Source: Vicia villosa
Lineage: Eukaryota > Streptophyta > Magnoliopsida > Fabales > Fabaceae
Length of the DNA: 64,000 nucleotides
Assembly: GCF_029867415.1 (NCBI RefSeq)
Contig: NC_081181.1
Span: 75,736,144 to 75,800,143, forward strand
Direction: 5' to 3'
Shown piece by piece: positions 3,001-64,000 of the stretch (the first letter of the stretch is position 1; every line of letters begins with the position of its first letter). The translations under genes were made by a program, and so were the position numbers. The notes under the pieces are model-generated. The model saw only the letters and a program-made list of their open reading frames with translations, did not search any database and was not told where the DNA came from.

Positions 3001-3427
3001 AACTCCTTTCTCCCTTGTATATGGCATGGAGGCATTCCTACCCATAGAGGTTGAAATCCCATCAACGAGAGTCTTGATGGAGGCAAAATTAACAGAAGCC
3101 GAGTGGTGTCAAAGCAGATTCAATGAATTGAACTTAATCGAAGAAAAGCGCATGAAAACTTTATGCCACAGACAGCTATATCAACAAAGAATAAAGAAAG
3201 CTTTCGACAAAAAGGTTCGACCTCGCCCAATCAAAGAAGGCGACCTTGTACTAAAAAATATTCAATCTTTTCTCACAGATTTGAGAGGGAAATGGACTCC
3301 CAATTATGACGGCCCATACGTGGTCAAGAGAGCTTTCTCAAGAGGAACCTTAATACTTACGACTATGGATGGAGAAGAATTTTCCCTTCCTGTGAACGTC
3401 GACGCAGTCAAGAAATACTTCTCCTAA
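3..3427 (+). pseudogene. pol: Ogre-A pol remnant: RT, RNase H, archaeal-type RNase H, integrase
   Basis: Degenerate reverse transcriptase polyprotein, cut at the window edge just after the point where the Ogre intron would end. It starts in the acidic linker (PVFEAEEEE). RT follows, with FMDGFSGYNQIK and the YVDD catalytic box at 786-797. Then come RNase H, a second RNase H with IFDGAVNAYG near 1710, and integrase with a zinc-binding N-terminus and the DNGSN motif near 2770. In-frame TAG stops lie at 438-440, about 1125, about 1138, 1397-1399, 1697-1699 and 2474-2476. The frame shifts between about 832 and 845. The reading frame after 2525 is open to the end, which matches the end of Ogre-B integrase. 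Confidence 0.92.
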
Positions 3428-3448
3428 ATAAACAAAAGAACAGCTTGC

Positions 3449-3598
3449 TAAATTTAAAACTCGCAAAGAGCGGCTTAGGCAGAAAAGAGCGTCTCGGTGA
3501 ATCGAAAACCCGAAAGGACGATTCAGGCAAAAGTTAGAGACATAAAAAAATATATATAATCAATCCCGGTAGACTTAAAACCCGAAAGGGGTAGTTTA
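3449..3598 (+). other. Three-hairpin cluster after Ogre-A pol
   Basis: Three stem-loops sit at 3449-3477, 3498-3525 and 3570-3598. Each has an outer stem, then AAAA on the 5' side, then a short inner stem closed by GAAA (or GCAAA in the first). The second is cleanest: TGAATCG pairs with CGATTCA around AAAACCCGAAAGGA. The third pairs TAGACT with AGTTTA, including one G-T wobble. The first has a decayed outer stem, but its inner CTC/GAG pairs fully. The same trio occurs in Ogre-B at 50115-50259 (reverse strand). Confidence 0.75.
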
Positions 3599-5042: not shown

Positions 5043-5330
5043 AATTATAACTGAGACCAGTTCCGCGATACAAACATCTGGATCGAGGGGAGGTTATCAC
5101 AACTAAGACCAGTTTCGAGATACGGACATCCGAAACGAGGGGAGGTTGTTTATCATCATTATAACTGAGACCAGTTCCGCGATACAGACATCCGGATCGA
5201 GGGGAGGTTATCACAACTGAGACCAGTTTCGAGATACGGACATCCAAAACGAGGGGAGGTTATTTATCATCATTACAACTGAGACCAATTTCGAGATACA
5301 TACATCCGAAACGAGGGGAGGTTGCTTACC
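5043..5330 (+). repeat. Tandem repeat, five units of about 58-64 bp, in Ogre-A 3' noncoding region
   Basis: Five units share ACTGAGACCAGTT, then ATAC..ACATC, then CGAGGGGAGGTT. They alternate between two types: one carries GTTTCG...CGAAAC and the other GTTCCG...CGGATC. The arms around the ACATC loop can pair in both types. Units begin near 5050, 5103, 5164, 5216 and 5277. Confidence 0.88.
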
Positions 5331-12608: not shown

Positions 12609-12613
12609 AGATC
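12609..12613. other. Left target-site duplication of SIRE-1 (AGATC)
   Basis: AGATC precedes the LTR start TGTTAGAAC and recurs at 22191-22195 after the second LTR. Confidence 0.95.
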
Positions 12614-13192
12614 TGTTAGAACAAGATTTGTTCTGATCAATTATCTTAGTTTTGATGATAACAATAATATGAATTTTGCTTAAGATAATATGGTACTCTA
12701 ATCCAATGCAATTTCCTTTTCAGGAAATATATAAAGAGTATGCATAATTCAGCGCTCAGAAGCTTTGTCTCAAAGGGTTCAGCATGCAACATCAGAACAT
12801 GGTCTGGCAAGACATCAGAAGATGGTCGAAGCAGAATCAGAACATGGGTCTATGGAAGCATCAGAAGAACAAGAGAACAGAAGCACTGAAGTTCTGATGG
12901 TATCACGCTCAGAAGCACTTCAAGGTCAGAAGATCAGAAGATGCTATGCACCAAGCTGTTTGACTCTGATGATATTCAAACGTTGTATTCACAAACATCA
13001 GATCAGAAGAAAGTACAAGTGGCAAGCTACGCTGACTGACAAAAGGAACGTTAAAAGCTACTAAAGGCTACGTCAGTAGACACGGCGTGAACAAGGCTCG
13101 AGGTAGTTGACAAAAGCGTATAACATTAAATGCGATGCTGTACGGAACACGCAAAGCATTAAATGCACTCAACGGTCATCTTCTCCAACGCC

Positions 13193-13200
13193 TATAAATA
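13193..13200 (+). promoter_or_regulatory. TATA box of SIRE-1 5' LTR
   Basis: TATAAATA within CGCCTATAAATATGAAG, conserved in all four Sirevirus LTRs of the window. It would place the transcript start about 30 bp downstream, near 13230. Confidence 0.75.
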
Positions 13201-13441
13201 TGAAGTTCTGATGAGAAGCAAGGTTAACGATTCTGCACCAAAACAACTCATATTAAACTTGCTGAAACGCTATTCAAATTAAAAGCTCAGAATCTTCATC
13301 TTCATCAAAGCTCACTACATTGCTGTTGTAATATATTAGTGAGATTAAGCTTAAACGTTAAGAGAAATATCACAGTTTGTGATTATCGCTTTTAAGAAGC
13401 ATTTGTAATACTCTTAGAATTGATTACATTAAGTTGTAAGG

Positions 13442-13632
13442 AACTAGAGTGATCGTGTGGATCAGAATACTCTGGGAAGTCTTAGAGGTTATCTAAGCAG
13501 GTTGTAACTAGAGTGATCGTGTGGATCAGTATACTCTAGAAAAGTCTTAGAGGGTATCTAAGCAGTTGTTCCTGGAGTGATCAGTGTGTGATCAGAAGAC
13601 TCTGGAAGACTTAGTTGCTGACTAAGTGGAAA
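13442..13632 (+). repeat. Hairpin array in SIRE-1 LTR
   Basis: Three units of about 64 bp. Each has AGAGTGATC...GATC...ACTCT, which can fold, followed by a second stem: CTTAGA/TCTAAG (13481-13497), CTTAGA/TCTAAG (13546-13562) and ACTTAGT/ACTAAGT (about 13607-13625). The same array is at 21809-21999, about 33560-33750 and about 40736-40918. Confidence 0.8.
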
Positions 13633-13825
13633 ACCATTGTAATCCGTGCGATTAGTGGATTAAATCCTCAGTTGAGGTAAATCATCTCTGCGGGGGTGGA
13701 CTGGAGTAGTTTAGTTAACAACGAACCAGGATAAAAATAACTGTGCAATTTATTTTTATCTGTCAAGTTTTTAAAGCTACACTTATTCAAACCCCCCCTT
13801 TCTAAGTGTTTTTCTATCCTTCAAT

Positions 13826-20966: not shown

Positions 20967-20980
20967 AAAAAGGGGGAGAT
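20967..20980 (+). promoter_or_regulatory. SIRE-1 polypurine tract
   Basis: AAAAAGGGGGAGAT directly abuts the 3' LTR start at 20981. Confidence 0.9.
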
Positions 20981-22190
20981 TGTTAGAACAAGATTTGTTC
21001 TGATCAATTATCTTAGTTTTGATGATAACAATAATATGAATTTTGCTTAAGATAATATGGTACTCTAATCCAATGCAATTTCCTTTTCAGGAAATATATA
21101 AAGAGTATGCATAATTCAGCGCTCAGAAGCTTTGTCTCAAAGGGTTCAGCATGCAACATCAGAACATGGTCTGGCAAGACATCAGAAGATGGTCGAAGCA
21201 GAATCAGAACATGGGTCTATGGAAGCATCAGAAGAACAAGAGAACAGAAGCACTGAAGTTCTGATGGTATCACGCTCAGAAGCACTTCAAGGTCAGAAGA
21301 TCAGAAGATGCTATGCACCAAGCTGTTTGACTCTGATGATATTCAAACGTTGTATTCACAAACATCAGATCAGAAGAAAGTACAAGTGGCAAGCTACGCT
21401 GACTGACAAAAGGAACGTTAAAAGCTACTAAAGGCTACGTCAGTAGACCCAGCGTGAACAAGGCTCGAGGTAGTTGACAAAAGCGTATAACATTAAATGC
21501 GATGCTGTACGGAACACGCAAAGCATTAAATGCACTCAACGGTCATCTTCTCCAACGCCTATAAATATGAAGTTCTGATGAGAAGCAAGGTTAACGATTC
21601 TGCACCAAAACAACTCATATTAAACTTGCTGAAACGCTATTCAAATTAAAAGCTCAGAATCTTCATCTTCATCAAAGCTCACTACATTGCTGTTGTAATA
21701 TATTAGTGAGATTAAGCTTAAACGTTAAGAGAAATATCACAGTTTGTGATTATCGCTTTTAAGAAGCATTTGTAATACTCTTAGAATTGATTACATTAAG
21801 TTGTAAGGAACTAGAGTGATCGTGTGGATCAGAATACTCTAGGAAGTCTTAGAGGTTATCTAAGCAGGTTGTAACTAGAGTGATCGTGTGGATCAGTATA
21901 CTCTAGAAAAGTCTTAGAGGGTATCTAAGCAGTTGTTCCTGGAGTGATCAGTGTGTGATCAGAAGACTCTGGAAGACTTAGTTGCTGACTAAGTGGAAAA
22001 CCATTGTAATCCGTGCGATTAGTGGATTAAATCCTCAGTTGAGGTAAATCATCTCTGCGGGGGTGGACTGGAGTAGTTTAGTTAACAACGAACCAGGATA
22101 AAAATAACTGTGCAATTTATTTTTATCTGTCAAGTTTTTAAAGCTACACTTATTCAAACCCCCCCTTTCTAAGTGTTTTTCTATCCTTCA
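20981..22190 (+). repeat. SIRE-1 3' LTR
   Basis: 1210 bp, the same length as the 5' LTR. Differences seen by eye are near 21432-21436 (ACCCAGCG against ACACGGCG) and near 21842 (CTAGG against CTGGG). It ends CTATCCTTCA before the AGATC duplication. Confidence 0.96.
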
Positions 22191-22195
22191 AGATC
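22191..22195. other. Right target-site duplication of SIRE-1 (AGATC)
   Basis: Matches 12609-12613. Joining the flanks here restores continuous Athila 3' noncoding sequence. Confidence 0.95.
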
Positions 22196-32726: not shown

Positions 32727-33780
32727 TGATAGAACAAGATTTGTTCTGATCAATATTCTTAGTTTTGATGATAACATGGATATTAATTTTGTATGAGATA
32801 ATGTGGTACTCTAATACATTGCAATTTCCCTTTCAGGAAATATATAAAGAGTATGCACAAATCAACGCTCAGAAGCTTTGTCTCAGAAGGTTCAGCATGC
32901 AACATCAGAACATGGTCTGGCAAGACATCAGAAGATGGTCAAGGCAGAATCAGAACATGGGTCTATGGAAGCATCAAAAGAACTTGAGATCAGAAGCAGA
33001 AGCACTGAAGTTCTCGTGGTATCACGCTCATAAGCACTTCAAGGTCAGAAGACAAGAAGATGCTATGCACCAAGCTGTTTGACTCTGATGATATTCAAAT
33101 ATTATATTCACAAACATCAGATCAGAAGAAAGTACAAGTGGCAGGCTACGCTGACTGACAAAAGGAACGTTGGAAGCTATTAAAGGCAACGTCAGTAGAC
33201 ACAGCGTGAACAAGGCTCGAGGTAGTTGACAAAAGCGTGAAACATTAAATGCAATGTTGTACGGAACACGCAAAGCATTAAATGCTCCCAACGGTCATCT
33301 TCTCAAACGCCTATAAATATGAAGTTCTGATGAGAAGCAAGGTTAACAACGATTCTGAACAAAAATTATTCTGAAAGACTTGCTGAAACGCTGTTCAATT
33401 CAAAGCTCAGAAACTTCACCTTCATCAAAGCTCACTACATTGCTGCTTTAATATATTAGTGAGATTAAGCTTAAACGTTAAGAGAAATATCACAGTTGTG
33501 ATTATAGCTTTTCAGAAGCATTTGTAATACTCTTAGAATTGATTACATTAAGTTGTAAAGAACTAGAGTGATCGTGTTGATCAGAATACTCTAGGAAGTC
33601 TTAGAGGTTATCTAAGCAGTTGTAACTAGAGTGATCGTGTTGATCAGGAAACTCTAGAAAGTCTTAGAGGGTATCTAAGCAGTTGTTCCTGGAGTGATCA
33701 AGTTGTGATCAGAATACTCTAGAAGACTTAGTTGCGGACTAAGTGGAAAACCATTGTAATCCGTGCGATTAGTGGATTAA
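32727..33780 (+). repeat. SIRE-2 5' LTR, truncated
   Basis: Starts TGATAGAAC (TGTTAGAAC in the other copies) and runs to GATTAGTGGATTAA, where the LTR at 39898 continues for about 160 more bases. The join to gag shows a short AA overlap. Confidence 0.93.
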
Positions 33781-39883: not shown

Positions 39884-39897
39884 AAAAAGGGGGAGAT
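39884..39897 (+). promoter_or_regulatory. SIRE-2 polypurine tract
   Basis: AAAAAGGGGGAGAT next to the 3' LTR. Three CAGGGGGAGA-like copies lie 110-160 bp upstream (about 39736-39785), the third one base shorter. Confidence 0.88.
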
Positions 39898-41110
39898 TGT
39901 TAGAACAAGATTTGTTCTGATCAATATTCTTAGTTTTGATGATAACAAGGATATGAATTTTGTGTGAGATAATAAGGTACTCTAATACATTGCAATTTCC
40001 CTTTCAGGAAATATATAAAGAGTATGCACAAATCAGCGCTCAGAAGCTTTGTCTCAGAAGGTTCAGCATGCAACATCAGAACATGGTCTGGCAAGACATC
40101 AGAAGATGGTCAAGGCAGAATCAGAACATGGGTCTATGGAAGCATCAGAAGAACTTGAGATCAGAAGCAGAAGCACTGAAGTTCTCGTGGTATCAAGCTC
40201 AGAAGCACTTCAAGGTCAGAAGACAAGAAGATGCTATGCACCAAGCTGTTTGACTCTGATGATATTCAAATATTATATTCACAAACATCAGATCAGAAGA
40301 AAGTACAAGTGGCAGGCTACGCTGACAGACAAAAGGAACGTTGGAAGCTATTAAAGGCAACGTCAGTAGACACAGCGTGAACAAGGCTCGAGGTAGTTGA
40401 CAAAAGCGTGAAACATTAAATGCAATGCTGTACGGAACACGCAAAGCATTAAATGCTCCCAACGGTCATCTTCTCAAACGCCTATAAATATGAAGTTCTG
40501 ATGAGAAGCAAGGTTAACAACGATTCTGAACAAAAATTATTCTGAAAGACTTGCTGAAACGCTGTTCAATTCAAAGCTCAGAAACTTCATCTTCATCAAA
40601 GCTCACTACATTACTGCTGTAATATATTAGTGAGATTAAGCTTAAACGTTAAGAGAAATATCACAGTCGTGATTATAGCTTTTCAGAAGCATTTGTAATA
40701 CTCTTAGAATTGATTACATTAAGTTGTAAGAAACTAGAGTGATCGTGTTGATCAGAATACTCTAGGAAGTCTTAGAGGTTATCTAAGCAGTTGTAACTAG
40801 AGTGATCGTGTTGATCAGGAAACTCTAGAAAGTCTTAGAGGTTATCTAAGCAGTTTTTCCTGGAGTGATCAAGTTGTGATCAGAATACTTTAGAAGACTT
40901 AGTTGCAGACTAAGTGGAAAACCATTGTAATTCATGCGATTAGTGGATTAAATCCTCAGGTGAGGTAAATCACTCCGTGGGGGTGGACTGGAGTAGTTTA
41001 GTTAACAACAAACCAGGATAAAAATAACTGTGCAATTTATTTTTATTGTACAAGTTTTTAAGACTACACTTATTCAAACCCCCCCTTTCTAAGTGTTTTT
41101 CTATCCTTCA
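39898..41110 (+). repeat. SIRE-2 3' LTR
   Basis: 1213 bp, TG...CA, complete. It ends CTATCCTTCA before the AAAAG duplication. Confidence 0.94.
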
Positions 41111-41115
41111 AAAAG
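41111..41115. other. Right target-site duplication of SIRE-2 (AAAAG)
   Basis: Matches 32722-32726. Confidence 0.92.
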
Positions 41116-43325: not shown

Positions 43326-44011
43326 TGTCGAGGGCGAAAAATCGTTTTGTTCCTCTTTTTTGTGGGATGAGACACCTGATGCCTTCTTTGGGCTCGAGTG
43401 CTCATAAAATGATTTTTCTTTTGTACCGACCAAACTTTTTATTATTTCCAAAGGGAGGAAAAGGAAAAAAGCTGCAATAACCTAAAAGTGGGGGGAGATC
43501 TTGGGTAAGAGGGTTGGTTATACGAAGGGAAGGTATTAGCACCCAACGTATCTATAGTACTCTATAGGTTTCTTTGCTTTGTTTTTCATTCCATGTTATT
43601 GAGAGGTTCTTGTGAAATAGGTGGGACCTAAGGTGTTTGTTTGATTATGCTCGCAAAGATCATCGCGATCCTCTGCATACATATCCCTTAGAGGGAATCA
43701 GAGCATCTGTAGCTCGGGGTCTACGGGTGCTAAGGTTTGAATGGGTTTTTTTTGTTTTGTTTTGCTCGCCAAGGATCGACCTTGTGCCTACGTATTCTCA
43801 AAGGGATGTTGAGAAAGTCAGAGCAATCGTAGTTCCCACTTATGCTAGTGGAAGCAAAGGAAAATAGCCAAATGTCGTCTAAATGCTAGATGTATCTAAT
43901 CTATATCATCACATACATCTATTTGATTTTTGTTTGAAAATCTTTTCATTATAAGCCCGGGGCCATGCCACTTAGGGTGCTTAGAATGATAAAGATGTTT
44001 TTGTGTTTAAC

Positions 44012-44230
44012 CAGCCTTGTGGCAAAAGTTTCAATGAAGTCAGCCTTGTGACAAAAACTTTGATTAATCAGCCAGCCTCGTGGCAAAAGTTTCAATGAAG
44101 TCAGCCTTGTGACAAAAACTTTGATTAATCAGCCAGTATGGTGGCAAAACGGTTTGATTGATTAGCCAGCCTTGTGGCAAGAAAAAGTTTGATTGATTAG
44201 CCAGCCTTGTGGCAAAAAAAGTTTGATTGA
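44012..44230 (-). repeat. Tandem repeat of CAGCC..GTGGCAAAA units in Ogre-B LTR
   Basis: Units of about 30-60 bp with CAGCCTTGTGGCAAAAGTTT and CAGCCTTGTGACAAAAACTT alternate about seven times. The same array lies at about 61479-61697 in the other LTR. Confidence 0.85.
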
Positions 44231-44334
44231 TTGATTGTTTGTGATGATATATAAGAGATACTCCTAGCATAGAGATGAAAAATGTCTAATCTCCTAGGGT
44301 ATTTGATTTTGGATATTGGGGAATGCTTATAAGA

Positions 44335-44500
44335 AGCCCGTGGGTCCTTGTACGAAGCCCAAGAGGAGGCTATTCGAGGGTCCTTGCATTGTAAGCCCAA
44401 GAGGAGGCTATGGGAGGGACAATCCAGGGTCCTTGCATTGTAAGCCCAAGAGGAGGCTATGGGAGGGTCACTCGTTTGTACAAAGCCCAAGGGGAGGCGT
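44335..44500 (-). repeat. Tandem repeat with AGCCCAAGAGGAGGCTAT in Ogre-B LTR
   Basis: About four units, each with GGGTCCTTG, TGTAAGCCCAAGAGGAGG and CTATGGGAGGG. Ogre-A has related words near 9500-9610. The other LTR copy is at about 61802-61967. Confidence 0.85.
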
Positions 44501-44625
44501 GGTATAGTTGGTTTGAGCTCTTAGAGCGATTTCACCGGGAAACCATACTCTATGTCCTAACCTAAACTAGGGGAGATTCTTTGCACGAAGCCCAATAGGA
44601 GGCTATGGGGAACCTAGTGTTATAC

Positions 44626-44760
44626 TAAGTTGAACAAGCATATATAACACAAACACATATATGAACAAGTACGAACAAATATGAACAAGTACATGCACAA
44701 TTATGAACAGTTATATGAACAGATATGAACAAGTATGAACAAGCACATATATGACAAAGG
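44626..44760 (-). repeat. Short tandem repeat GAACAA(G/A)TAT in Ogre-B LTR
   Basis: About nine imperfect copies of a 10-12 bp word (GAACAAGTAC, GAACAAATAT and similar). It is also at about 62093-62227. Confidence 0.8.
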
Positions 44761-45726
44761 GTGTGTATATAATGGAGTTTATGAAGGAAATATACCTGTA
44801 AGCATGCTCCATTTGTATACACAGGGGCTCGGGACTCATCCTCGGGGAGAGGCCCTCTTGAGTTTATTCAAAAGCTATGTAAATAGGTATTTACAAAGGG
44901 CTTGGGACTTATACCTACATGGAGGCCCATGATATTTTTGGGAAGATTTAAAGAAACCTTCATTTTTGGTTTGTTATTCAAAGTTTAAAAAACAGATTGA
45001 TTGAGATATGTACAAAAAGGCGTACAATGAAATACCTAATTTCATGTACTGGAATGGGTATGTACAAAAGGGGCTTGGGACTTATACCTACATGGAGGCC
45101 CATGTTTTATTTTATAAAACATGGTGGATTGTTTTAGTTACAGACGCGTCGTTTGAAAAAAAACTGTTTGAAAAGTATTGTTTTGAAAGAAGTTTATTTG
45201 TTTCGAACAAAAAGACTGTATAAAAAGAAAAAGGAGTGGGTCTTATACTCTCTAATATTTGAGAGGCCCCACATCGTTTTGAAAATCAATTGATCAATTA
45301 AAAAGATTTAATCAAAAGTTTCAAAAAGAAATGGTTTATCGTTTTTGAAAAGAATCGCGATCGCTTGTTTTAAAACGATTTGAATTTTGGAAGAAGTCAA
45401 TTTAATCAAGATAAACAAAAGATTATCCTTAATTAACACTTAGATGATTAGGGTTTGCTTCAAAAAATATTTACAAGTGATTAACTTTGAAAATCAAATG
45501 AAAAATAATATTTAAAAGTATTAAAATTACTTAAAAACAAGTCATTTTAAAACTATTAAAAAATATATCAAATAAATGTTTTTTTGATGATTTTTTTTGA
45601 TATTCTTAAAATATATATATTAAACAAGAAGTGTGTAAAAAATGAATGAAAAATGAATTAATTTCATTGGTTAAATAATTAATTAAAGTTGTTAAAGAAA
45701 AATGAAAAAAAATAGTGTTAAAAAAA

Positions 45727-45820
45727 ATGGTTTGGCCCCTAGGAGTGTTGAACTCGTGACCTTGAGGTTATTATCCAAAAACTTAGCCAACTGGACCACG
45801 CGCGTGGTCTGTTAATACTT
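45727..45820 (-). ncRNA. tRNA-like cassette in Ogre-B 3' LTR
   Basis: Reverse strand. Box A-like TGGTCCAGTTGG lies at 45787-45798 and box B-like GAGTTCAACAC at 45745-45755. A T8 run follows (45720-45727). The T-arm ACGAG/CTCCT pairs at four of five positions. The anticodon-loop position reads ATAATAA with U33, and the stretch TAATAACCTCAAGGTCACGAGTTC resembles plant tRNA-Ile(AAU) from memory. The acceptor stem does not pair. The 16-bp palindrome GACCACGCGCGTGGTC (45794-45809) overlaps the 5' end. The second copy is at about 63193-63287. Confidence 0.6.
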
Positions 45821-46753
45821 GCAACGAATTAAAATATATTTTGAGATGATTTCCAAATTTCAGTTTCAAAAATATGGCGCCAAGAACACAACCCTAATTT
45901 GAATTTGAAAATTCTGAAAACTAGATTGTTTTGATCAAGTGAATAGCCTATCTTGCTCGATTTTCCACAAGGAACATGATGGTATCATTTAATTTCATTT
46001 ATTTTCACTCTAAGATCATTAATTTTCTGATGAACACGAAGAACCCTAATTCTGAGTTTCAATCTGAAATCGTGTGTGTGCATGATAAGTTGCAATTGAT
46101 TGAGGGTTAATGATCCATACATATGCAGAAACAAGATGGCATGGCAGTTTTTCATTTATGATGCATGTATGATAGAGTTTGAAGTTTAAGAGAGCTTACC
46201 TTAAAAATGTCAAAACTGGAAATCGAATTCTGCAAATGAGGGATTCCAGATGTTGTTTCTTGATTTGAACACCTTCAGTGGACCTTATGGAACATGTTTG
46301 AAGTCTTGGAATGAACTGAAAACCTCTTGATCAGTTTGTGGCACCCGATCTGCAGAGCTATGGTGTGAGGATCGAATTTGATGATTTTGATGTTTCAGAT
46401 CACGGATGATGATTGGGATAGTTCATACATGGTACATGGATGGTGTTTGGATGATTAGTTTGGACAGATATGGGCCTGGATAAAAATTGGCATGATAAGT
46501 CTCATGTTATGCATATTTGGAAAGTGAGGTAGTGATTTTGAGTTTTAGGTGTTTTTGGGGTGTGTGGATGGTTCAAACACATCATATGTGATGTTTATGG
46601 TTTGTGAGAAGCATCACTTTGGTCAGAACTTGCAAGGGATGGAACTTGCATTTTCTCCTCTTTGAAACTTTATGAAACTTGTAATTCAAGAAAGAAGAGA
46701 GAAACCTATCTTTTGTGAGGTTTTGGTGTGAATTTGAATGAGGTAAGGACCTC

Positions 46754-46761
46754 TATTTATA
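46754..46761 (-). promoter_or_regulatory. TATA box of Ogre-B 3' LTR
   Basis: TATAAATA on the reverse strand in GGCCTATAAATAGAGG. It splits the LTR into a U3 of about 1.6 kb and R-U5 of about 3.4 kb, so the tRNA-like cassette is in the transcribed part. Confidence 0.7.
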
Positions 46762-48342
46762 GGCCAAGGTTTCTGAATACAAAGCTTTGCAAGTTGATCA
46801 AGAATTGGTGATTTGGCATTTGAAGATAAAATGGAATCTTTACATTTAATGCACATGGTTAAAAGTGACTAAACCATGGTTAAAACTCTAGCTTCTTATC
46901 CTCTTCCATTCTGATCTCAAATCAGAAAAATATCTCCAATTATTGCATCTATGCATCATTACTTGGATCATTTGGCAAAATGGTTCATAACTTTGGCAAA
47001 ATGACTTGAAATTTCAAGTGAAAAGTTCACTAATGTCAAAATTCAAAACCATGGCTACACTCCATATTTTTTCATGCTCTTTGACATTTTGGAAAGCTCA
47101 TATTACACACTTCAAAACCCTAGTTGAAAGTTTCTTCAAACTCTTTAAGGAAATGAGTGAAAAAGATCCATGAACTTTGAGAAAAATGAAGTTTTAAGTG
47201 AAGTTTTCACAAAGTACCAACTTTGAAGCTCCATATCTCTTAAATGGTTGATCTTATGGAAAAAAATTATATGTGTCAAAGTTGTTTATTGGATCAAAAT
47301 CTACAACTTTCATGTTGGAAGTTTTTTTCAGTTTGTAGGTGAAATTTTGAGTTATTCCCTTCCAAAGTTTGGAAAAAACCATTGAAAAACACTTAGAAAT
47401 TTTTCTAAGTATGAAAAGTCAAACTTTGACTTTTTGATTCTTGATTGATTTTCTTGATTTTTCTTGATCAAATGACTTCTCCTATCATATATTGATGATT
47501 TAAAACTTCAAAAGTCATGGTTGACCAAAATTCCCCAAAAGTCAATGGTGATTCTGTACAGTTGACTTTTTCAGACGAATCGCGTTTCTGGAGTTTTCAA
47601 ATGAAACAGGCTATCCTCACCAAATGAGTGGTATGAATGGATCATATTGAAGCATTAGAGGATATTGAGCCATGGTTTGAGTTGTGGCACCATGTCCTGA
47701 TTAAAAAGTCAGTTGTTTAGTGAATTAGGTCAAAACCCTAATTGTCGACCTGATGAAATTGATGACTGTGGACCTTGAATTGAGATGCAATTTCCATGGG
47801 ATATTGTCATAGGGATTATTTGAGGATGATTGAAACCTTTGATTGACTTCCTGGGGATTTATAGGGTTTCCCAAATGTGATCCCTGATTTCAGTCCCTGA
47901 TAGTTCAAAACCCTAATCTGATGATTTGAAATTTCACTGTTGATCAATCCTTGTGTAGGAGATGTTATGAGCCAATGGATTAGGTCAAAATTATGTACTT
48001 GGGGTCTTGAGGTCATGTCCCAAGTCATTAGGTCAAATCCTGAGCAAAAGTCAGGAGTATGCTATCTTCAGTCAAAACCCTAATCTGGTTGATTCAGAGC
48101 CTTTGAGCTTGCTGAAATGAATCTCTGAGGACCAAATGTTGATTGTTGATGAAGATAATTCTTTTGAAATGAAGGGGGAACAAAACCCTAATTGATTTGT
48201 ACTTGTACTGATGAGTGATTTCCTGATTAAACCCTGTTGAGTCACAAGTAGCAAACACAAGCTATGCAATTTGTTAGAGATGCAAATGATGCATATGCAA
48301 TGATATGAGGTGGTATCTTAGGTCAAAAATTGGGGTATGACA

Positions 48343-48355: not shown

Positions 48356-50114
48356 AAGTTTCTTCAACCTGAGACATGAAGATTGAAAATCTTCGTTTTG
48401 ATAGGGTGGAAGAGACTTAAATATCAGAAGACGCGAATTTTGGACCTAAGATACCAAAATCGCGAATGATGCAAGGATATCTTTACCAAGGGATATCAAA
48501 ACTGACTCCACTGGGGACAAGAGATCGGGAAGGATGTCTCAATCCGTTTTAGGAAGAGAATCCGTTTCCTTTCTTTTCGGGAAAGCAAGTGTATGCTTCA
48601 CCGGGGAATGATAGCTTTGTAAGAAAAGCTTACCTATCGACATTACCGACTATCTGCACAGGGATAGACTTGTTAATAATGCGAAGGTGAAAGGTATGAA
48701 ACTATATTACCGACTATCAGCATGGGGATAGACATGTTAAATAATATAACCAGAACAAAAGGTTACCGACTACCAGCCTCGTGATAGTGGTTTCGAAGAC
48801 ATGATCAATTATCAGCCGAGTGATAAAATGATCCTGGAGACTTTGCTAGGGAAATTACTGGTTATTCAGCTTTGTGAACAGTAATAAGGCCCTGATTGTC
48901 AAATGGTCTTCATGATTGATTTCCTAGAGAGGAAAATCTTTTGAAAGAGACATAAGCTACTCAGATGATGAGGCTATTGCTTATTGTCTGTTTTTCGCGA
49001 CTCTGTTTGAGGAATCGGAATTTGAATCTCTGGTAAAGACAAGGTTCTATCCAAGAATGAATTGGAAAGAAATAGTCAAACAAGACTTTGCACCCACGAG
49101 GAATGAACTCGAATGGGGATTTCCTCCTTTGTTTTGAAAAGGAGAAACTAAAGCAACCTTCTTCCACGAGGAATGATCTCAGTGGGGAACTGGAGAAACA
49201 AGATGTTCTTTCTGCTTATGGGTGACAATCTATTTGGAGAGATGACACGCCCATACTTGTTTCTTTTTTCTTTTTTCTTTTTCTCTCTTTTTTTCTCTTG
49301 GGACAGATATATCCTGAACAAGTAATTTCGAAGAAAACACTGAAAAATGCAAGAATGCATAAATGATGTAAATATGTATGAATGATGAATGTCATGAATG
49401 TAGCATGCATACTGACAATACTGACAGACAAAGAAGTATATACTGGAGAGGGACCGATGTCGCAATACAACCAGATACTCGGCAAATGTTCTTCAACACG
49501 GTGTAGATAACACAGGTGATGAATGGTGTTGCGTGTTTTCAACTTCTTTGGGGAAGATAAGCATCTCTTCTCATTGAGACGGAAGAATCTTTTCACTGGA
49601 GATGGAAAATCTTCGTCACTGGGGATAGAAGAGCCTCTTCACTGGGGATAGAAGAGCTTCGTCCTATGGAGATAGCTGTTGATGTTCCTTCTGTTGTTCA
49701 CAACTCAAAGGAAAGTTTCGCTTTTATTTTGAAAAAGTGAAGTAAATTCATTTAAAACTTTTTTTCATTTTTTTTTCAAAAGTGAATAACACAATTAAAG
49801 CGTCATTTTGTAAGCTAAAAGAAATTAGAGATTGCAAACAAATGGGCACAAGGCTCAAATTTATTTAATAGGATGGAAATCAGCTAAAGGCGTGATTCCA
49901 TGGAGTATTTACAAAAGTTGGAAATGGTAATTATGCGGAAAAGGCTACATTGAAAGCAATAACCATTATTCCCTCTAACAACTTTGAGTTCCAACTGTGC
50001 TTGTTGCTTCAGATTGGCGATGATTTGATTGAAGATCCTTTGATGAAAAAGACTCCTCAGGTGACGAAGTATGGACTGATGCAGTTACTTTGTCATAAAT
50101 CCCTAATTTTTGCC
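48356..50114 (-). other. Ogre-B 3' noncoding region with repeat arrays
   Basis: No real ORF; apparent frames in 49148-49596 are low-complexity. It contains an array of hairpins of the CTATC..GATAG type (48650-48884), a GGGGATAGAAGAG repeat near 49600-49680 and poly-T stretches. Unlike coding parts, it differs strongly in content from the Ogre-A counterpart. Confidence 0.75.
48650..48884 (-). repeat. Five stem-loops in Ogre-B 3' noncoding region
   Basis: Stems at 48650-48667 and 48714-48731 (CTATC/GATAG), 48769-48788 (ACTATC/GGTAGT in sense, with a wobble), 48809-48826 (TTATC/GATAA) and 48855-48884 (TTACTG/CAGTAA). Most loops contain CAGC on the plus strand. Units are about 40-65 bp apart. 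Confidence 0.65.
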
Positions 50115-50259
50115 TAGATTGCCCTTTCAGGTTTTCAATCTACCAGGATGAATTTTTCTGTTTATTGTCTCTAATTTTTGCCTGGACCGCCCTTTCGGGT
50201 TTTCAGTCCACCGAGACGCTCATTTTTGCCTAAGTCGCCCTTTGCGGGTTTTCGACTTA
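50115..50259 (-). other. Three-hairpin cluster after Ogre-B pol
   Basis: Stem-loops at 50231-50259, 50183-50210 and 50115-50142 in sense order, the first about 24 bases after the pol stop. Sense stems are TAAGTCG/CGACTTA, TGGACTG/CGGTCCA and TAGATTG/CAATCTA. Each encloses AAAA plus an inner stem closed by GCAAA or GAAA. They align one-to-one with 3449-3598 in Ogre-A. Confidence 0.8.
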
Positions 50260-50282
50260 CCGAGCTGTTCTTTTGTTCTTTT

Positions 50283-53200
50283 TTAGACAAAGTATTTCTT
50301 GACTGCATCAGCATTCACAGGATGTGGGAGTTCATCACCATCCATGGTTGCAAGAGTCATGGCGCCGCCAGAAAATGTTCTTTTGACAACATACGGGCCT
50401 TCGTAATTAGGAGACCATTTGCCCCTAGAGTCTGGTTGAAAAGACAAGATCTTTTTAAGCACGAGGTCGCCTTCTCGAAATTCACGAGGTCGAACCTTTT
50501 TGTTGAAAGCTTGTTTCATCCTTGCTTGGTATAACTGTCCATGACATAGAGCAGTCATACGTTTTTCTTCGATTAAGTTCAACTGATCGTATCTGCTTTG
50601 ACACCATTCAGCCTCTGATAACTTAGTCTCCATGAGGACTCTCATTGATGGTATTTCGACTTCTACGGGGAGCACAGCTTCCATGCCATATACTAGAGAA
50701 AAGGGAGTTGCCCCTGTTGAAGTACGCACTGAAGTACGGTACCCATGTAAAGCAAATGGCAGCATTTCGTGCCAGTCTTTGTAAGTGACGACCATTTTCT
50801 GGACGATCTTCTTAATGTTCTTGTTAGCAGCTTCAACGGCGCCATTCATTTTTGGTCTGTAAGGAGAAGAGTTATGATGCTCAATCTTGAATTCCTCACA
50901 TAATTCTTTCATCATCTTGTTGTTCAAGTTTGAACCATTGTCAGTAATGATCTTACTGGGAATACCATATCGGCAAATGATGTTATTCTTGATGAACCTC
51001 ACAACCACTTGTCTTGTAACATTGGCATAAGATGCTGCTTCGACCCATTTGGTGAAGTAATCAATTGCCACTAAGATGAAACGATGACCGTTTGAAGCTT
51101 TCGGTTCGATCATTCTGATCATGTCGATACCCCACATGGAAAAAGGCCACGGAGATGATAGAACGTTGAGTAGAGTCGGTGGTACATGGATCTTATCTGC
51201 GTAGATTTGGCACTTGTGACATCTTTTCACGTGTTTATAACAATCAGATTCCATTGTCAACCAATAGTATCCTGCTCTTAAGATCTTCTTGGACATTGCA
51301 TGCCCGTTTGAATGAGTTCCAAAGGACCCTTCATGCACTTCATGCATTAACATGTCTGCTTCGTGTCAATCCTCGCATCTGAGCAAAACCATGTCGAAAT
51401 TTCTTTTGTATAGCACATCTCCGTTCAGGAAGAAACTGCCAGAAAGTCTCCTTAGAGTTTTCTTATCTTTGTTTGATGCCCCAAGTGGGTACTCTTGAGT
51501 TTGAAGGAAGCGTTTGATGTCGTGGAACCACGGTTTATCATCGATGACTGCTTCAGTTGCAAACACATAGGCGGGCCTTTCAAGGCGCGTAATTCTGACT
51601 GTAGGCATATCATTCCAGTGATTAACTTTGAACATGGAAGATAGAGTAGCCAAGGCGTCTGCCATTCGATTCTGATCTCGAGGTATATGATGCAATTCAA
51701 CCTTGTTGAAGAAAGTCAACAGACGTCTTGCATAATCTCTGTAAGGAATCAAGCCAGGGTGATAAGTTTCCCACTTGTCTTTGATTTGGTTGATCACGAG
51801 GGCTGAATCTCCATATATGTTTAGGATTTTGATCCTTAAGTCAATGGCTTCTTCGAGACCCATGATACAAGCTTCATATTCTGCGATGTTGTTGGTGCAA
51901 TCAAATAGCAATCTGGCGGAGAACGGGATATGAGTACCCTTGGGAGTGATGATGATTGCCCCAATTCCATTGCCAAAAGTGTTTACTGCTCCATCGAAAA
52001 TTAGGCCCCATCTTGATCCGGGCTCAGGACCTTCTTCAGGTAATGGTTCGTCACAATCTTTCATCTTCAAGTACATGACATCTTCATCAGGAAAGTCAAA
52101 CTTGAGAGATTGATATTCATTAATTGGTTGATGCGCCAAATGATCGGCGAGAACGCTTCCTTTGACCGCTTTTTGAGCACGGTATTCAATGTCATATTCG
52201 GATAACAGCATTTGCCATCGGGCAATCCTTCCTGTTAATGCAGGCTTTTCAAAGACATACTTGATCGGATCCATTCTGGAGATTAACCAAGTAGTATTGT
52301 TGATCATGTATTGGCGGAGACGTTTTGAAGCCCAAGCCAAAGCACAACACGTTTTTTCGAGCATGGAGTAACGAGACTCACAGTCTGTGAATTTCTTACT
52401 CAAGTAATAGATGGCATGTTCCTTCTTACCGGTTTCATCTTGCTGTCCAAGCATACAACCCATGGATTCTTCCAACACAGTAAGGTACATGATTAATGGT
52501 CTTCCTTCAACTGGAGGAATCAGTATTGGTGGTTCTAACAGGTATTCTTTGATACTGTCGAACGCTTTTTGGCAATCTTCAGTCCATACGACCCCTTGAT
52601 CTTTGCGGAGAAGCTTGAAAATCGGCCCACAAGTAGCAGTCATTTGAGAGATGAATCTGGAGATATAGTTCAATCGTCCGAGAAATCCTCTTACTTGTTT
52701 TTCAGTTTTTGGTGCAGGCATCTCTTGAATAGCTCTGACTTTGTCGGGATCTACTTCAATACCTCTTTGGCTGACAATGAAACCCAAGAGTTTTCCAGAT
52801 CTAACCCCAAAAGTACATTTGTTAGGATTCAAGCGAAGCTGATATTTCCTTAGTCGTTGAAACAACTTCAACAGGTATTCAATATGTTCTTCTTCTGTGC
52901 TGGACTTGGCTATCATGTCGTCCACATAAACTTCTATTTCTTTATGCATCATGTCATGAAAGAGAGTAGTCATTGCCCTTTGGTAAGTTGCGCCTGCATT
53001 CTTTAATCCAAATGGCATCACTTTGTAGCAAAATGTACCCCATGGGGTGATGAAAGATGTCTTCTCCATGTCTTCAGGAGCCATCTTAATCTGATTATAG
53101 CCGGAGAAACCGTCCATGAAGGAAAAGACGTTGAACTTAGCGGTGTTATCAACCAGCATGTCAATATGTGGTAATGGAAATTCATCTTTTGGACTAGCCT

Positions 53201-53748
53201 TGTTCAAGTCACGGTAGTCAACACACATTCTGACTTTGCCATCTTTCTTCGGAACTGGCACTATGTTAGCCAACCATTGAGGATACTCAGAGGTGACAAG
53301 AAAACCTGCGTCGAGTTGCTTTTGAACTTCCACTTTGATCTTGTTAGCCATATCAGGGTGAGTCCTTCGTAATTTCTGCTTAACTGGCGAACATTCTGGC
53401 TTCAATGGCAAGTAATGCTGAACAATATTGGTATCCAACCCAGGCATGTCTTGGTAGGACCAGGCAAACACGTCAACATATTCTTTGAGAAGGTCTGTCA
53501 ACTTACTCTTGATATCAGCATCAAGCAGCGATCCAATGGTCACTTCTTTTTTGTCTTCTTCAGAACCCAAGTTGATCTTTTCTAAAGGCTCTTTGTGAGG
53601 CAGAATGGCTCTTTCCTCGTGCTTAAGTAATCGAGAGATCTCGTCCGGGATCTCCTCTTCTTCCTCTTCTTCGGCTTCGAACACAGGAAACTCAAAGTTG
53701 GGAGAGGGCATAGGGTTATTGCATTCAATGGGTTTATCAATAGTAAAT
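50283..53748 (-). pseudogene. pol: Ogre-B pol (exon 2): RT, RNase H, archaeal-type RNase H, integrase
   Basis: Begins at the predicted splice acceptor (KFTIDKPIE after joining). An acidic linker leads into RT, with FMDGFSGYNQIK and YVDD at 52917-52928. RNase H follows (SMGCMLGQQDE, KKFTDCESRYS), then the second RNase H (LIFDGAVNTFGNG, NNIAEYEACIMGL), typical of the Tat/Ogre lineage. Integrase follows with a zinc domain (HEGSFGTHSNGH...CHKC), a core (GIDMI, ITDNGSN, RPKMNGAVEAANKN) and a C-terminal tail. The only lesion seen is a TGA at 51366-51368, probably from CGA. About 1150 codons. Confidence 0.94.
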
Positions 53749-54105
53749 CTGCACATGTGATTTATATTTATTTCAGAAATTTTATGAATGCAGGAGTGTA
53801 TGCAGATTTTTTGAAAAGTTTTTTTTTTTTTTATTTATTTTGGTTTTTTAGGATTACCATTTCCAGAAAAAGCAAAAATAAAACATATAATGTAGGGAAT
53901 TCAAAATGACACTTTATTTATGATTCATTTTTTAAACAAAGCCCTAAACACAAACTCATTTGTCTTGGGCAGGACAAAGAGGGAAACCCTTAAAACAAAG
54001 CCCTATACACAAAGTTATTTGGGCGGAACATTAAAAGCAAAGCCCTATAAAACATCTCTCTGCTTTGGGCAAGGCAGGAGGTCAAAATAACAGCGAGGTG
54101 ATTAC
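53749..54105 (-). other. Predicted Ogre intron between protease and RT (357 nt)
   Basis: Reverse strand: donor AAA/GTAATC at 54105 and acceptor TGTGCAG at 53749. The sequence is AT-rich with several stops, including TAA directly at the donor. Splicing joins AA of the last pro codon to A of the next, keeping frame into pol. A spliced intron at this place is a documented Ogre hallmark. Confidence 0.78.
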
Positions 54106-58450: not shown

Positions 58451-59974
58451 CTAAGCATCTTCATCAGACGAAGAACCAAATGCATTGTGCAGCTTGAGCT
58501 TCATGATTTCTTTCCCATAGTGAGCTTTCAATTCGGCCTTTTCAATTCTCAGCTTGTCAACAACATTCTTCCAATCATCAGGAGTCGGAGCGTTGCTTGT
58601 CGAGCCTTCAAGATTTTTCTTGCTTTCTTTGATGTACCTCTTGATTGCAGCGTCTTTCTGACGAATCTTCTCATCTTTACTCATGAGCCATCCATCTTGA
58701 TAATAGAGAGTTTCTTCGTGATCTTTCACTCTTTTCTTCAACTTTCTATTTTCCACCTCAGTGCTACGAAACTTTTCTTCCCAAGCATCTTTTTCTGCCC
58801 TCATCTTAGCCAAAGTGTCTTGGTATTCCTCCATAGTGGGAATGTTGGGTCGTTGAGATACTGCAGGAAACATGGGTTTTTCATAAGCATAAGGCATTTG
58901 GAACTCCTTGGCTCTTTTCTTTACCCAACAGGTGTAGGCGTTCATGGCAATGCAATTTCTTTCCTCACCTTTTTCTTTCCATCGGACGTCGTACCAAGCT
59001 CTCACCATTCTTGCTTTCAACTTTTTAGGATTATCCCCTTCTCGGTAGAAGTATCCTTCCACTGAGGGACCAACAGGTTTAACTGAATTTGCATACCCGA
59101 GTTGTCGTCGGGCTAGGACCGGGTTATAGTTAATTCCTCCTTGCGTACCAATGAGGGGTACGTTGGCGAACTCTCCACAACTATCAATGGTTTCTGTACC
59201 ACAGCGAGCCAAGGTATACCAATGAATATCTTTATTAGTAAGAGACATAAGTCTTCGAGGCCAACGCAAACCTTCTCAGTTTTCCGTGAAAATAGGAGAC
59301 TCAGGTAAGTGTGAAACAATCCATTTGAACAACAAAGGTGCACAACATACAATGATTCCACCGCCTTGGCGATTCCTATGATGGACAGAAAAATACATGT
59401 CACCAAGCAAAGTCGGAACAGGATTTCCAATCAGAAAGATCTTTATGGCATTGATATCGACAAAGTTGTCGACATTGGGAAACAGAACCAACCCATAGAT
59501 GAGCAAGGCTAGTATAGCTTCAAAAGCTATCATGCTACCAGTTTCGATGAAATCAAAGGCTTTCTTTATCAGGAAGTGTGAGGCTAAACCCGGGAGGTTT
59601 CCTTTGGTAGTCCAATTACTCTCTACTTCAGATTTCTTCAAGTGGATACTTGATGCAATGACGTGTGACTTAGGAATGGCTTCCAAACCATTGAAGGGTA
59701 TTTTGTCAGACACAGGAATACCCAAAAGATTGGCATATTCTTCCAAGGTCGGTACCAACTGGTAGTCTGGAAAGGTGAAACACCGGTAGACGGGATCATA
59801 GAACTGAACCAGAGTTTTGAGAAGTCCTTCATCAACATGAGTGTTCAAAATAGGCAAAAGCTTTCCATAACTTTTCCTAAAATTAGAAGGATCTTGTACA
59901 GAAGATGCTAACTCTATCAGTCTTTCTACATCAGGTGCTTTGAAACCGTACTTTTTGGTATACCTTTTTTCCAT
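58451..59974 (-). pseudogene. Ogre-B ORF1
   Basis: ATG at 59974, upstream of gag, where Ogre elements carry an extra ORF of unknown role. The N-terminal half (FYDPVYRCFTFPDYQLVP, TLEEYANLLGIP) resembles the plant mobile-domain-like proteins common in plant transposons. The C-terminal 130 residues are charged and coiled-coil-like (EEKFRSTEVENRKLKKRVKD) with an acidic end (SSSDEDA). A TGA at 59276-59278 splits it into 232 and 272 codons in the same frame. About 507 codons in total. Function unknown. Confidence 0.88.
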
Positions 59975-60792: not shown

Positions 60793-63700
60793 TGTCGCGG
60801 GCGAAAAATCGTTTTGTTCCTCTTTTTTGTGGGATGAGACACCTGATGCCTTCTTTGGGCTCGAGTGCTCATAAAATGATTTTTCTTTTGTACCGACCAA
60901 ACTTTTTATTATTTCCAAAGGGAGGAAAAGGAAAAAAGCTGCAATAACCTAAAAGTGGGGGGAGATCTTGGGTAAGAGGGTTGGTTATACGAAGGGAAGG
61001 TATTAGCACCCAACGTATCTATAGTACTCTATAGGTTTCTTTGCTTTGTTTTTCATTCCATGTTATTGAGAGGTTCTTGTGAAATAGGTGGGACCTAAGG
61101 TGTTTGTTTGATTATGCTCGCAAAGATCATCGCGATCCTCTGCATACATATCCCTTAGAGGGAATCAGAGCATCTGTAGCTCAGGGTCTACGGGTGCTAA
61201 GGTTTGAATGGGTTTTTTTTGTTTTGTTTTGCTCGCCAAGGATCGACCTTGTGCCTACGTATTCTCAAAGGGATGTTGAGAAAGTCAGAGCAATCGTAGT
61301 TCCCACTTATGCTAGTGGAAGCAAAGGAAAATAGACAAATGTCGTCTAAATGCTAGATGTATCTAATCTATATCATCACATACATCTATTTGATTTTTGT
61401 TTGAAAATCTTTTTATTATAAGCCCGGGGCTATGCCACTTAGGGTGCTTAGAATGATAAAGATGTATTTGTGTTTAACCAGCCTTGTGGCAAAAGTTTCA
61501 ATGAAGTCAGCCTTGTGACAAAAACTTTGATTAATCAGCCAGCCTCGTGGCAAAAGTTTCAATGAAGTCAGCCTTGTGACAAAAACTTTGATTAATCAGC
61601 CAGTACGGTGGCAAAACGGTTTGATTGATTAGCCAGCCTTGTGGCAAGAAAAAGTTTGATTGATTAGCCAGCCTTGTGGCAAAAAAAGTTTGATTGATTG
61701 ATTGTTTGTGATGATATATAAGAGATACTCCTAGCATAGAGATGAAAAATGTCTAATCTCCTAGGGTATTTGATTTTGGATATTGGGGAATGCTTATAAG
61801 AAGCCCGTGGGTCCTTGTACGAAGCCCAAGAGGAGGCTATTCGAGGGTCCTTGCATTGTAAGCCCAAGAGGAGGCTATGGGAGGGACAATCCAGGGTCCT
61901 TGCATTGTAAGCCCAAGAGGAGGCTATGGGAGGGTCACTCGTTTGTACAAAGCCCAAGGGGAGGCGTGGTATAGTTGGTTTGAGCTCTTAGAGCGATTTC
62001 ACCGGGAAACTATACTCTATGTCCTAACCTAAACTAGGGGAGATTCTTTGCACGAAGCCCAATAGGAGGCTATGGGGAACCTAGTGTTATACTAAGTTGA
62101 ACAAGCATATATAACACAAACACATATATGAACAAGTACGAACAAATATGAACAAGTACATGCACAATTATGAACAGTTATATGAACAAATATGAACAAG
62201 TATGAACAAGCACATATATGACAAAGGGTGTGTATATAATGGAGTTTATGAAGGAAATATACCTGTAAGCATGCTCCATTTGTATACACAGGGGCTCGGG
62301 ACTCATCCTCGGGGAGAGGCCCTCTTGAGTTTATTCAAAAGCTATGTAAATAGGTATTTACAAAGGGCTTGGGACTTATACCTACATGGAGGCCCATGAT
62401 ATTTTTGGGAAGATTTAAAGAAACCTTCATTTTTGGTTTGTTATTCAAAGTTTAAAAAACAGATTGATTGAGATATGTACAAAAAGGCGTACAATGAAAT
62501 ACCTAATTTCATGTACTGGAATGGGTATGTACAAAAGGGGCTTGGGACTTATACCTACATGGAGGCCCATGTTTTATTTTATAAAACATGGTGGATTGTT
62601 TTATTTACAGACGCGTCGTTTGAAAAAAAACTGTTTGAAAAGTATTGTTTTGAAAGAAGTTTATTTGTTTCGAACAAAAAGACTGTATAAAAAGAAAAAG
62701 GAGTGGGTCTTATACTCTCTAATATTCGAGAGGCCCCACATCGTTTTGAAAATCAATTGATCAATTAAAAAGATTTAATCAAAAGTTTCAAAAAGAAATG
62801 GTTTATCGTTTTTGAAAAGAATCGTGATCGCTTGTTTTAAAACGATTTGAATTTTGGAAGAAGTCAATTTAATCAAGATAAACAAAAGATTATCCTTAAT
62901 TAACACTTAGATGATTAGGGTTTGCTTCAAAAAATATTTACAAGTGATTAACTTTGAAAATCAAATGAAAAATAATATTTAAAAGTTTAAAATTACTTAA
63001 AAACAAGTCATTTTAAAACTATTAAAAAATGTATCAAATAAATGTTTTTTTGATGATTTTTTTTGATATTCTTAAAATATATATATTAAACAAGAAGTGT
63101 GTAAAAAATGAATGAAAAATGAATTAATTTCATTGGTTAAATAATTAATTAAAGTTGTTAAAGAAAAATGAAAAAAAATAGTGTTAAAAAAAATGGTTTG
63201 GCCCCTAGGAGTGTTGAACTCGTGACCTTGAGGTTATTATCCAAAAACTTAGCCAACTGGACCACGCGCGTGGTCTGTTAATACTTGCAACGAATTAAAA
63301 TATATTTTGAGATGATTTCCAAATTTCAGTTTCAAAAATATGGCGCCAAGAACACAACCCTAATTTGAATTTGAAAATTCTGAAAACTGGATTGTTTTGA
63401 TCAAGTGAATAGCCTATCTTGCTCGATTTTCCACAAGGAACATGATGGTATCATTTAATTTCATTTATTTTCACTCTAAGATCATTAATTTTCTGATGAA
63501 CACGAAGAACCCTAATTCTGAGTTTCAATCTGAAATCGTGTGTGTGCATGATAAGTTGCAATTGATTGAGGGTTAATGATCCATACATATGCAGAAACAA
63601 GATGGCATGGCAGTTTTTCATTTATGATGCATGTATGATAGAGTTTGAAGTTTAAGAGAGCTTACCTTAAAAATGTCAAAACTGGAAATCGAATTCTGCA

Positions 63701-64000
63701 AATGAGGGATTCCAGATGTTGTTTCTTGATTTGAACACCTTCAGTGGACCTTATGGAACATGTTTGAAGTCTTGGAATGAACTGAAAACCTCTTGATCAG
63801 TTTGTGGCACCCGATCTGCAGAGCTATGGTGTGAGGATCGAATTTGATGATTTTGATGTTTCAGATCACGGATGATGATTGGGATAGTTCATACATGGTA
63901 CATGGATGGTGTTTGGATGATTAGTTTGGACAGATATGGGCCTGGATAAAAATTGGCATGATAAGTCTCATGTTATGCATATTTGGAAAGTGAGGTAGTG
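60793..64000 (-). repeat. Ogre-B 5' LTR (partial; runs off the window)
   Basis: 3208 bp shown, collinear with 43326-46534 of the other LTR at an offset of 17466-17467. About 15 substitutions and one 1-bp indel were seen. It includes the second tRNA-like cassette: box A 63253-63264, box B 63211-63221, palindrome 63260-63275. Confidence 0.95.

Follow-up and report, generated by a model that had tools for sequence, protein, structure and literature searches.

The locus described here raises the question of why two Ogre-type retrotransposons that have drifted apart in sequence should both carry the same small set of RNA hairpins immediately behind the pol stop codon. Ogre-type elements account for a large share of some legume genomes, including 45% of that of Lathyrus sativus (PMC7004042). 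The window (the whole stretch of DNA analysed, 64,000 nucleotides of Vicia villosa) contains two Ogre-type Ty3/gypsy elements, Ogre-A and Ogre-B, which lie in opposite orientation and are 76% alike across 3.9 kb. The features that define the carrier of the hairpins and its surroundings are the following.

50283..51353, minus strand: Ogre-B integrase ORF, with rve and Integrase_H2C2 domain matches
51366..53756, minus strand: Ogre-B ORF for reverse transcriptase, RNase H and second RNase H (RVT_1, RT_RNaseH, RVT_3)
43326..48342, minus strand: Ogre-B 3' LTR (43326-46534 against 60793-64000, 99.5% identity)
49865..49944, minus strand: second conserved 3' UTR block of Ogre, ~80% alike to Ogre-A 3762-3841 (plus strand)

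The carrier is an Ogre/Tat Ty3-gypsy retrotransposon. Its domains run RVT_1, RT_RNaseH and RVT_3 with rve in the next ORF, so that the reverse transcriptase stands ahead of the integrase and the second RNase H (aRH) between them, a position known for Ogre and Retand (PMC6317226). Ogre-B carries gag, DUF7745 ORFs lie upstream of Retrotrans_gag as the extra ORF of Ogre/Tat-type elements, and a PROT-RT gap (one ORF ends at 54102 and the next starts at 53756) occupies the known place of the Ogre intron, as far as sequence alone can place it. DUF7745 is covered jointly by two ORFs (58451-59974, minus strand), probably the extra Ogre ORF split by a break, and an in-frame stop (51353-51368, minus strand) splits pol between the second RNase H and the integrase despite the 99.5% LTR identity over the part seen. 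The 5' LTR (60793-64000) is cut at the window end, so the pair was compared, and the match seen, across 3.2 kb up to that edge; the full LTR length of ~5.0 kb depends on the inferred 5' edge of the 3' LTR at 48342, a TG following a purine-rich stretch. Ogre-A, on the plus strand, is truncated by the window start and decayed, its pol having in-frame stops and a frame shift. Short tandem repeats occur at 44011-44232 in the Ogre-B LTR and at 5044-5323 downstream of pol in Ogre-A. A repeat of ~1.1-1.2 kb is present in four direct copies (12609-13824, 20977-22191, 32727-33780 and 39894-41111; 92-99.7% alike) that are perhaps LTRs of other elements located between both Ogre copies.

The hairpins form an array of modules of 48-52 nt built to one plan. 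From 5' to 3', each consists of an outer stem P1 of 4-5 bp, the letters GG, a 7-bp stem P2, AAAA on the 5' side only, a 3-bp stem P3 and a GAAA or GCAAA loop; GGCAAAAAUUA joins P2 back to P1 on the 3' side, which makes GG / GGCAAAAAUUA a conserved internal loop. Folding gives P1 of Ogre-B modules 1, 2 and 3 as GCUC/GAGC, GUCUC/GAGAC and AUCCU/GGGAU. The six modules of the window are listed below, with bit scores from a model built from these same six modules.

50218..50265, minus strand: Ogre-B module 1, 48 nt, P1 of 4 bp, P3 CCC/GGG, loop GCAAA, GGCAAAAAU; 14/14 pairs, 68.3 bits
50167..50217, minus strand: Ogre-B module 2, 51 nt, P1 of 5 bp, loop GAAA, GGCAAAAAUUA; 15/15 pairs, 78.1 bits
50099..50149, minus strand: Ogre-B module 3, 51 nt; 15/15 pairs, 74.6 bits
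3443..3490, plus strand: Ogre-A module 1, decayed; 12/14 pairs, 53.0 bits
3491..3541, plus strand: Ogre-A module 2; 14/15 pairs, 74.4 bits
3563..3614, plus strand: Ogre-A module 3, with an extra G next to P3; 14/15 pairs, 70.0 bits

Modules 1 and 2 adjoin directly and a spacer precedes module 3 (17 nt in Ogre-B, 21 nt in Ogre-A). Module 1 begins 17 nt behind the stop codon of the integrase ORF, the pol stop, in Ogre-B and 15 nt behind it in Ogre-A, and the Ogre-B array lies ~1.76 kb upstream of the inferred 3' LTR start. The first-pass annotation had described three hairpins behind the pol stop of both elements, and all the stems it gave, the AAAA bulge and the loops were found again, as were its compensatory changes, two double changes in hairpin 2, one in hairpin 3 and one in the inner stem of hairpin 1. 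Its extent for the array (50115-50259) was too narrow: the hairpins are real, but the modules reach from 50265 to 50099 in Ogre-B and from 3443 to 3614 in Ogre-A, and P1 and the GG / GGCAAAAAUUA loop had been overlooked. Coding for protein behind pol was rejected, with stops in all three sense frames over ~280 nt in both Ogre-B and Ogre-A.

Within the window, all 44 of the 44 pairs are possible in Ogre-B (41 Watson-Crick, 3 G-U and no A-C), and 40 of 44 in Ogre-A (36 Watson-Crick and 4 G-U), the broken ones being 2 A-C and 2 other mismatches. From Ogre-B to Ogre-A, the stem changes amount to 4 double compensated, 7 single compatible and 4 broken pairs; when the same changes were placed at random, a mean of 35.6 pairs were retained versus the 40 observed (P = 0.0003), and at least four double changes arose with P = 0.024. 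The unpaired bases are fixed where the stems vary: compared module to module within Ogre-B, they differ in 0 of 59 cases and stem bases in 34 of 86, and between Ogre-A and Ogre-B the differences number 6 of 62 and 20 of 88, respectively, so that unpaired bases are less fixed between the elements than within Ogre-B. Given the six modules and no structure, RNAalifold returned exactly this fold, with 15 pairs of which 8 are changed on both sides. With the structure named, 95.2% of cells are paired versus 18.6-51.2% with slid partners, and the count of further pair types shows no excess across the six modules (13 versus 14.7 in shuffles, 468 of 500 shuffles being as high). As a sign of the sense strand, G-U stands against A-C at 3 to 0 in Ogre-B and 4 to 2 in Ogre-A, and the antisense fold is less stable in five of the six modules, module 1 of Ogre-A being the exception.

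Folding of longer and shorter pieces gives a mixed picture. The whole array of Ogre-B has z = -3.04 and that of the decayed Ogre-A z = -0.82; module 1 of Ogre-A is absent from its minimum-energy folds, and module 1 of Ogre-B folded alone without flanks adopts a different outer stem. The three broken pairs of Ogre-A modules 1 and 2 are minority states, found in 1-4 of 30 A-like copies including Ogre-A itself, and the U-U mismatch of its module 3 occurs in all 30 of these copies (Ogre-A included).

The array is not confined to the window. In the source assembly (2.03 Gb), the exact core AAAACCCGAAAGGG-N7-GGCAAAA occurs 11,381 times (5,676 forward, 5,705 reverse), and the same pattern read backwards occurs 0 times. 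A map-ordered sample was taken as the first 60 distinct core-match loci, each chosen by the core of one module and not by the rest. Regardless of locus, an Ogre-type pol end (KKYF or KKYY, one residue and the stop) lies just upstream in 60 of 60, and a loose pattern finds three classical modules in 48 loci, two in 9 and one in 3. The first classical module starts 13-27 nt from the pol stop in 48 loci; in the other 12, the distance is 68-111 nt. Module number thus varies among sampled loci, being mostly three and elsewhere four, or one to two classical. At one locus (L050), the array stops after module 2 and is followed by sequence whose start resembles that of an Ogre LTR (TGTCATACCCC); something has probably inserted there. 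Four Ogre-like loci (L087, L094, L141 and L098) have one or two classical modules after a purine-rich stretch that could form a hairpin ending GGCAAAA-like.

B-like copies, A-like copies and a third family were also surveyed. The 40 best of 499 B-like candidates are identical over 145 nt, which as the selected top of a list was not used as evidence; in 8 B-like places compared, similarity is 95-98% in the pol flanks and 87-96% in the downstream flanks. In 30 A-like loci (of 40 scored, window copy included), the model finds 90 modules, three apiece, with 1278 of 1320 cells paired (G-U 83, A-C 7). A tight pattern applied to the same 30 loci gives three modules in 23, two in 6 and none in 1, with the pol end seen in 28, counts that undershoot the model. 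By the tight pattern, 29 of 30 third-family loci (of 40 scored) have three modules and one has two; the latter (L053) is presumably the query's own copy with a repeat inserted in module 2. Candidate relatives in viral contigs (1 place) and genome contigs (6 places) look like chance matches in prokaryotic or phage-like contigs, 6 of the 7 scoring 13-20 bits, and were rejected.

Model matches in the 60 loci provided the material for tests of covariation across copies: 181 reached E up to 0.01, and the best 150 were aligned, of which 52 were distinct. Among these 52 modules, 97.1% of 731 cells pair versus 22.2-52.2% in slid controls, and 120 cells hold double changes versus 41.3 in shuffles. Counted by pair, two measures give no support: 9 pairs with a double change compare with 7.1 in shuffles (71 of 500 as high), and 17 further pair types compare with 21.1 (500 of 500 as high). 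Rows were picked and aligned by the model of the window modules and pairing is therefore favoured, a bias of which the tests within the window are free.

A tree-aware null was built by placing the same number of changes per column at random on a FastTree tree (2000 simulations). The observed paired fraction of 97.1% exceeds both the mean (75.5%) and the maximum (89.3%) of this null, and the excess is seen stem by stem (P1, P = 0.0005; P2, 0 of 2000 simulations; P3, P = 0.0145). The two sides of a pair changed on the same branch 8 times versus 2.55 expected (P = 0.0015), and one of these events, in the final P2 pair, produced a non-pair; by stem, P2 has 3 versus 1.59 (P = 0.2) and P3 has 1 versus 0.23 (P = 0.22). 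A home-made, R-scape-like test of single pairs passed 1 of 15 pairs at E < 0.05 and 0 of 1260 other column pairs. The power of this test is low because stem columns hold 0-7 events each, with a mean of 2.23 compared with 1.33 per unpaired column. The large-alignment comparison with phylogenetic background put forward in the first-pass annotation, approximated within one genome, is therefore divided: pairing as a whole lies far above the null, but when the 15 pairs are taken one by one, a single pair reaches significance. Its suggestion of selection on RNA structure is well supported by the null for Ogre-A against Ogre-B, the RNAalifold result, the fixed loops beside variable stems and the tree-aware null, and the array is almost certainly a conserved RNA structure.

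Which part of the module may be recognised is suggested by a family with four modules, found at 8 of the 60 sampled loci, in which the first two modules are short. This Ogre-like family (L085, L111, L112, L119, L123, L124, L125 and L136) has the pol end KKYYA. The short modules keep P1, P2, the G-rich J1 and the GGCAAAANUUA side, and the AAAA bulge, P3 and the tetraloop are replaced by another small hairpin. Folded in isolation, the second short module behaves as expected and the first prefers another pairing; the whole array of L125 has z = -2.46, with some modules missing from its minimum-energy fold, and further arrays do not fold unusually well (z = -1.59 for one). Since the same internal loop is found in the short modules, we infer that the J1/J2 loop is the common denominator. 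In the 60-locus sample, J1 starts with G in 163 of 165 classical modules, and J2 begins GGCAAAA or CGCAAAA in 160 of 163, a count that is partly circular because the patterns used to choose the loci and to read J2 demand nearly that string. The J1/J2 loop is probably the protein site, framed by P1 and P2; most likely it, unmentioned in the first-pass annotation, and not the GNRA loop, is the recognised part.

With high probability, the genomic RNA of Ogre (Ty3/gypsy, Tat clade) carries in this array a modular element that acts in cis. For the function of the array, the reading that we favour is a protein-binding element that assists the export or the stability of Ogre RNA retaining its intron, comparable to the CTE and RTE of animal retroelements, although on this analogy it falls just short of an even chance, and the narrower claim that export or stability of that RNA is the main task stands slightly lower still. 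A sequence-specific RNA-binding protein would bind at the GG / GGCAAAANUUA internal loop and perhaps also at the AAAA bulge, repetition of the module would supply several linked binding sites, and the bound protein might be a host export or RNA-stability factor. Ogre RNA retaining the pol intron would then reach the cytoplasm intact and serve as gag-pro message and genome. Both spliced and unspliced RNA would carry the array, which therefore could not by itself tell them apart.

Export elements of animal retroelements are located near the 3' end, the CTE has repeated protein-binding internal loops, and the IAP RTE and MusD MTE are positioned between pol and the 3' LTR. Modules arranged in tandem behind pol, their internal loops fixed, would suit a role of this animal type, which is therefore offered as the best explanation. 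Structured cis elements help intron-retaining RNA of animal retroelements out of the nucleus (PMC3856414, PMC12786077), the IAP RTE and the MusD MTE acting in export of full-length RNA (PMC12786077), and Ogre transcripts retain their intron in part (PMC6317226). As a cis RNA structure of a reverse-transcribing element, the Ogre array is a candidate counterpart of the structures that bring unspliced RNA out of the nucleus by way of NXF1 (PMC3856414) and of the IAP RTE and MusD MTE, structured export elements of mouse LTR retrotransposons (PMC12786077). It differs from the CTE in having no Rfam match, several separate modules and other loop letters, and from the MTE, described with a pseudoknot and a kissing loop, in being a plant element made of tandem simple modules. 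Rfam searches gave 0 gathering hits in the window and 8 chance-level hits below gathering in 49900-50300, and Rfam may lack CTE/RTE elements. A role in 3' processing, which the first-pass annotation had listed beside packaging, dimerisation and stability, is unlikely because the array lies ~1.76 kb upstream of the inferred 3' LTR start.

The main rival is a packaging or dimerisation signal, in which Ogre Gag would bind the repeated internal loops and select full-length RNA for particles. Repeated identical sites would suit a multimeric Gag, and yet packaging signals are usually close to the 5' end and the model (default filters) finds no module in the 5' region present in the window. In Ty3, retrotransposition needs cis sequences at either end of the RNA and can do without nt 429-4979, and packaging of the RNA relies on sequences in the UTR or POL (PMC4974528), which speaks for a signal of this kind. 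Dimerisation in particular is weakened by the GAAA loop, which is not self-complementary, so that loop kissing is not expected, and by the J2 complement TTTTTGCC, which occurs once per Ogre-B LTR and nowhere in the first 11 kb, where Ogre-A lies; on the same counts, the idea that the GGCAAAAA loop pairs with the LTR was rejected. Packaging or dimerisation is thus a rather unlikely function, though the strongest competitor of export or stability.

Next, and less probable again, the array may stabilise the message from a position close to the stop codon and protect it against nonsense-mediated decay, as the RSE of Rous sarcoma virus (RSV) does. That element differs in lying as a stretch of ~400 nt behind gag, its action being tied to gag termination, and it is not known to be a repeat of one small module. 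In RSV, the 400-nt element directly behind the gag stop counters decay (PMC5580461), and the Ogre array likewise directly follows a stop codon, the first classical module being 13-27 nt past it in 48 of 60 loci and a 3' UTR of ~1.9 kb extending to the inferred LTR. The remaining 12 loci, at 68-111 nt, fit less well, and the array follows the stop of pol and not the gag-pro stop of the unspliced RNA. Results from plants point both ways, as a readthrough structure downstream of the stop codon of a plant virus stabilised a reporter, but in the same assay an unstructured start of the 3' UTR protected and added structure abolished the protection (PMC6277124).

It is very unlikely that shared descent alone explains the array, with pairing a functionless by-product of copied hairpins. 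The few independent changes (0-7 events per stem column) and the single pair of 15 that passes would agree with descent, as would the near identity of the best-scoring B-like and C-like copies in the array, although those lists were selected for similarity. Against this, stem columns changed more than unpaired ones (2.23 versus 1.33 events) yet remained paired, the random placement of changes between Ogre-A and Ogre-B gave P = 0.0003, and from 36 nt past the array the identity of the two 3' UTRs falls to 35-46% over 100 nt. This poorly conserved stretch parts the array from the second 3' UTR block (49865-49944 / 3762-3841). The least probable reading, by a hair, is that the array does not serve Ogre but is bound by a host repressor or yields small RNAs from its hairpins: host RNA pathways could sample the repeated hairpins of so abundant a repeat, but Ogre would be expected to lose such an array, and P2 (7 bp) with P3 (3 bp) is short for Dicer-like processing.

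Two other features of retrotransposon 3' regions invite comparison with the array. The ENE of Evade and other plant LTR retrotransposons is likewise a structured module and lies in the spacer that separates the ORF from the 3' LTR (PMC12501189). Unlike the Ogre array, whose loops are G/A-rich and have no U tract, it depends on U-rich internal loops to clasp the poly(A) tail; identity with an ENE was rejected, as the loops are GG, AAAA and GGCAAAANUUA and no U-rich internal loop between G-C pairs was found. The hypervariable tandem repeats of Ogre 3' UTRs also lie between pol and the 3' LTR, but these vary and feed satellites (PMC7004042), whereas the array is conserved, few in number and structured. 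No description of an Ogre hairpin array was found in the open-access papers searched, and one may exist in subscription papers. The array can be grouped with the cis-acting RNA structures known from other retroelements, but has its own architecture.

These findings bear on both the recognition and the biology of Ogre elements. A small repeated module with co-changing stems and fixed loops could act as bait RNA for the partner protein, the module structure provides a model for searching other plants, and the array could become a structural marker for Ogre/Tat elements beyond protein domains. A 2025 review states that RNA export of LTR retrotransposons has not been directly studied in plants (PMC12786077). 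The array, as a tandem set of internal-loop modules recruiting a plant export receptor or adaptor, might conceivably be the first element for RNA export to be recognised in any family of plant LTR retrotransposons, a possibility that we regard as rather unlikely. If true, it would explain how Ogre moves its intron-retaining genomic RNA and became so abundant.
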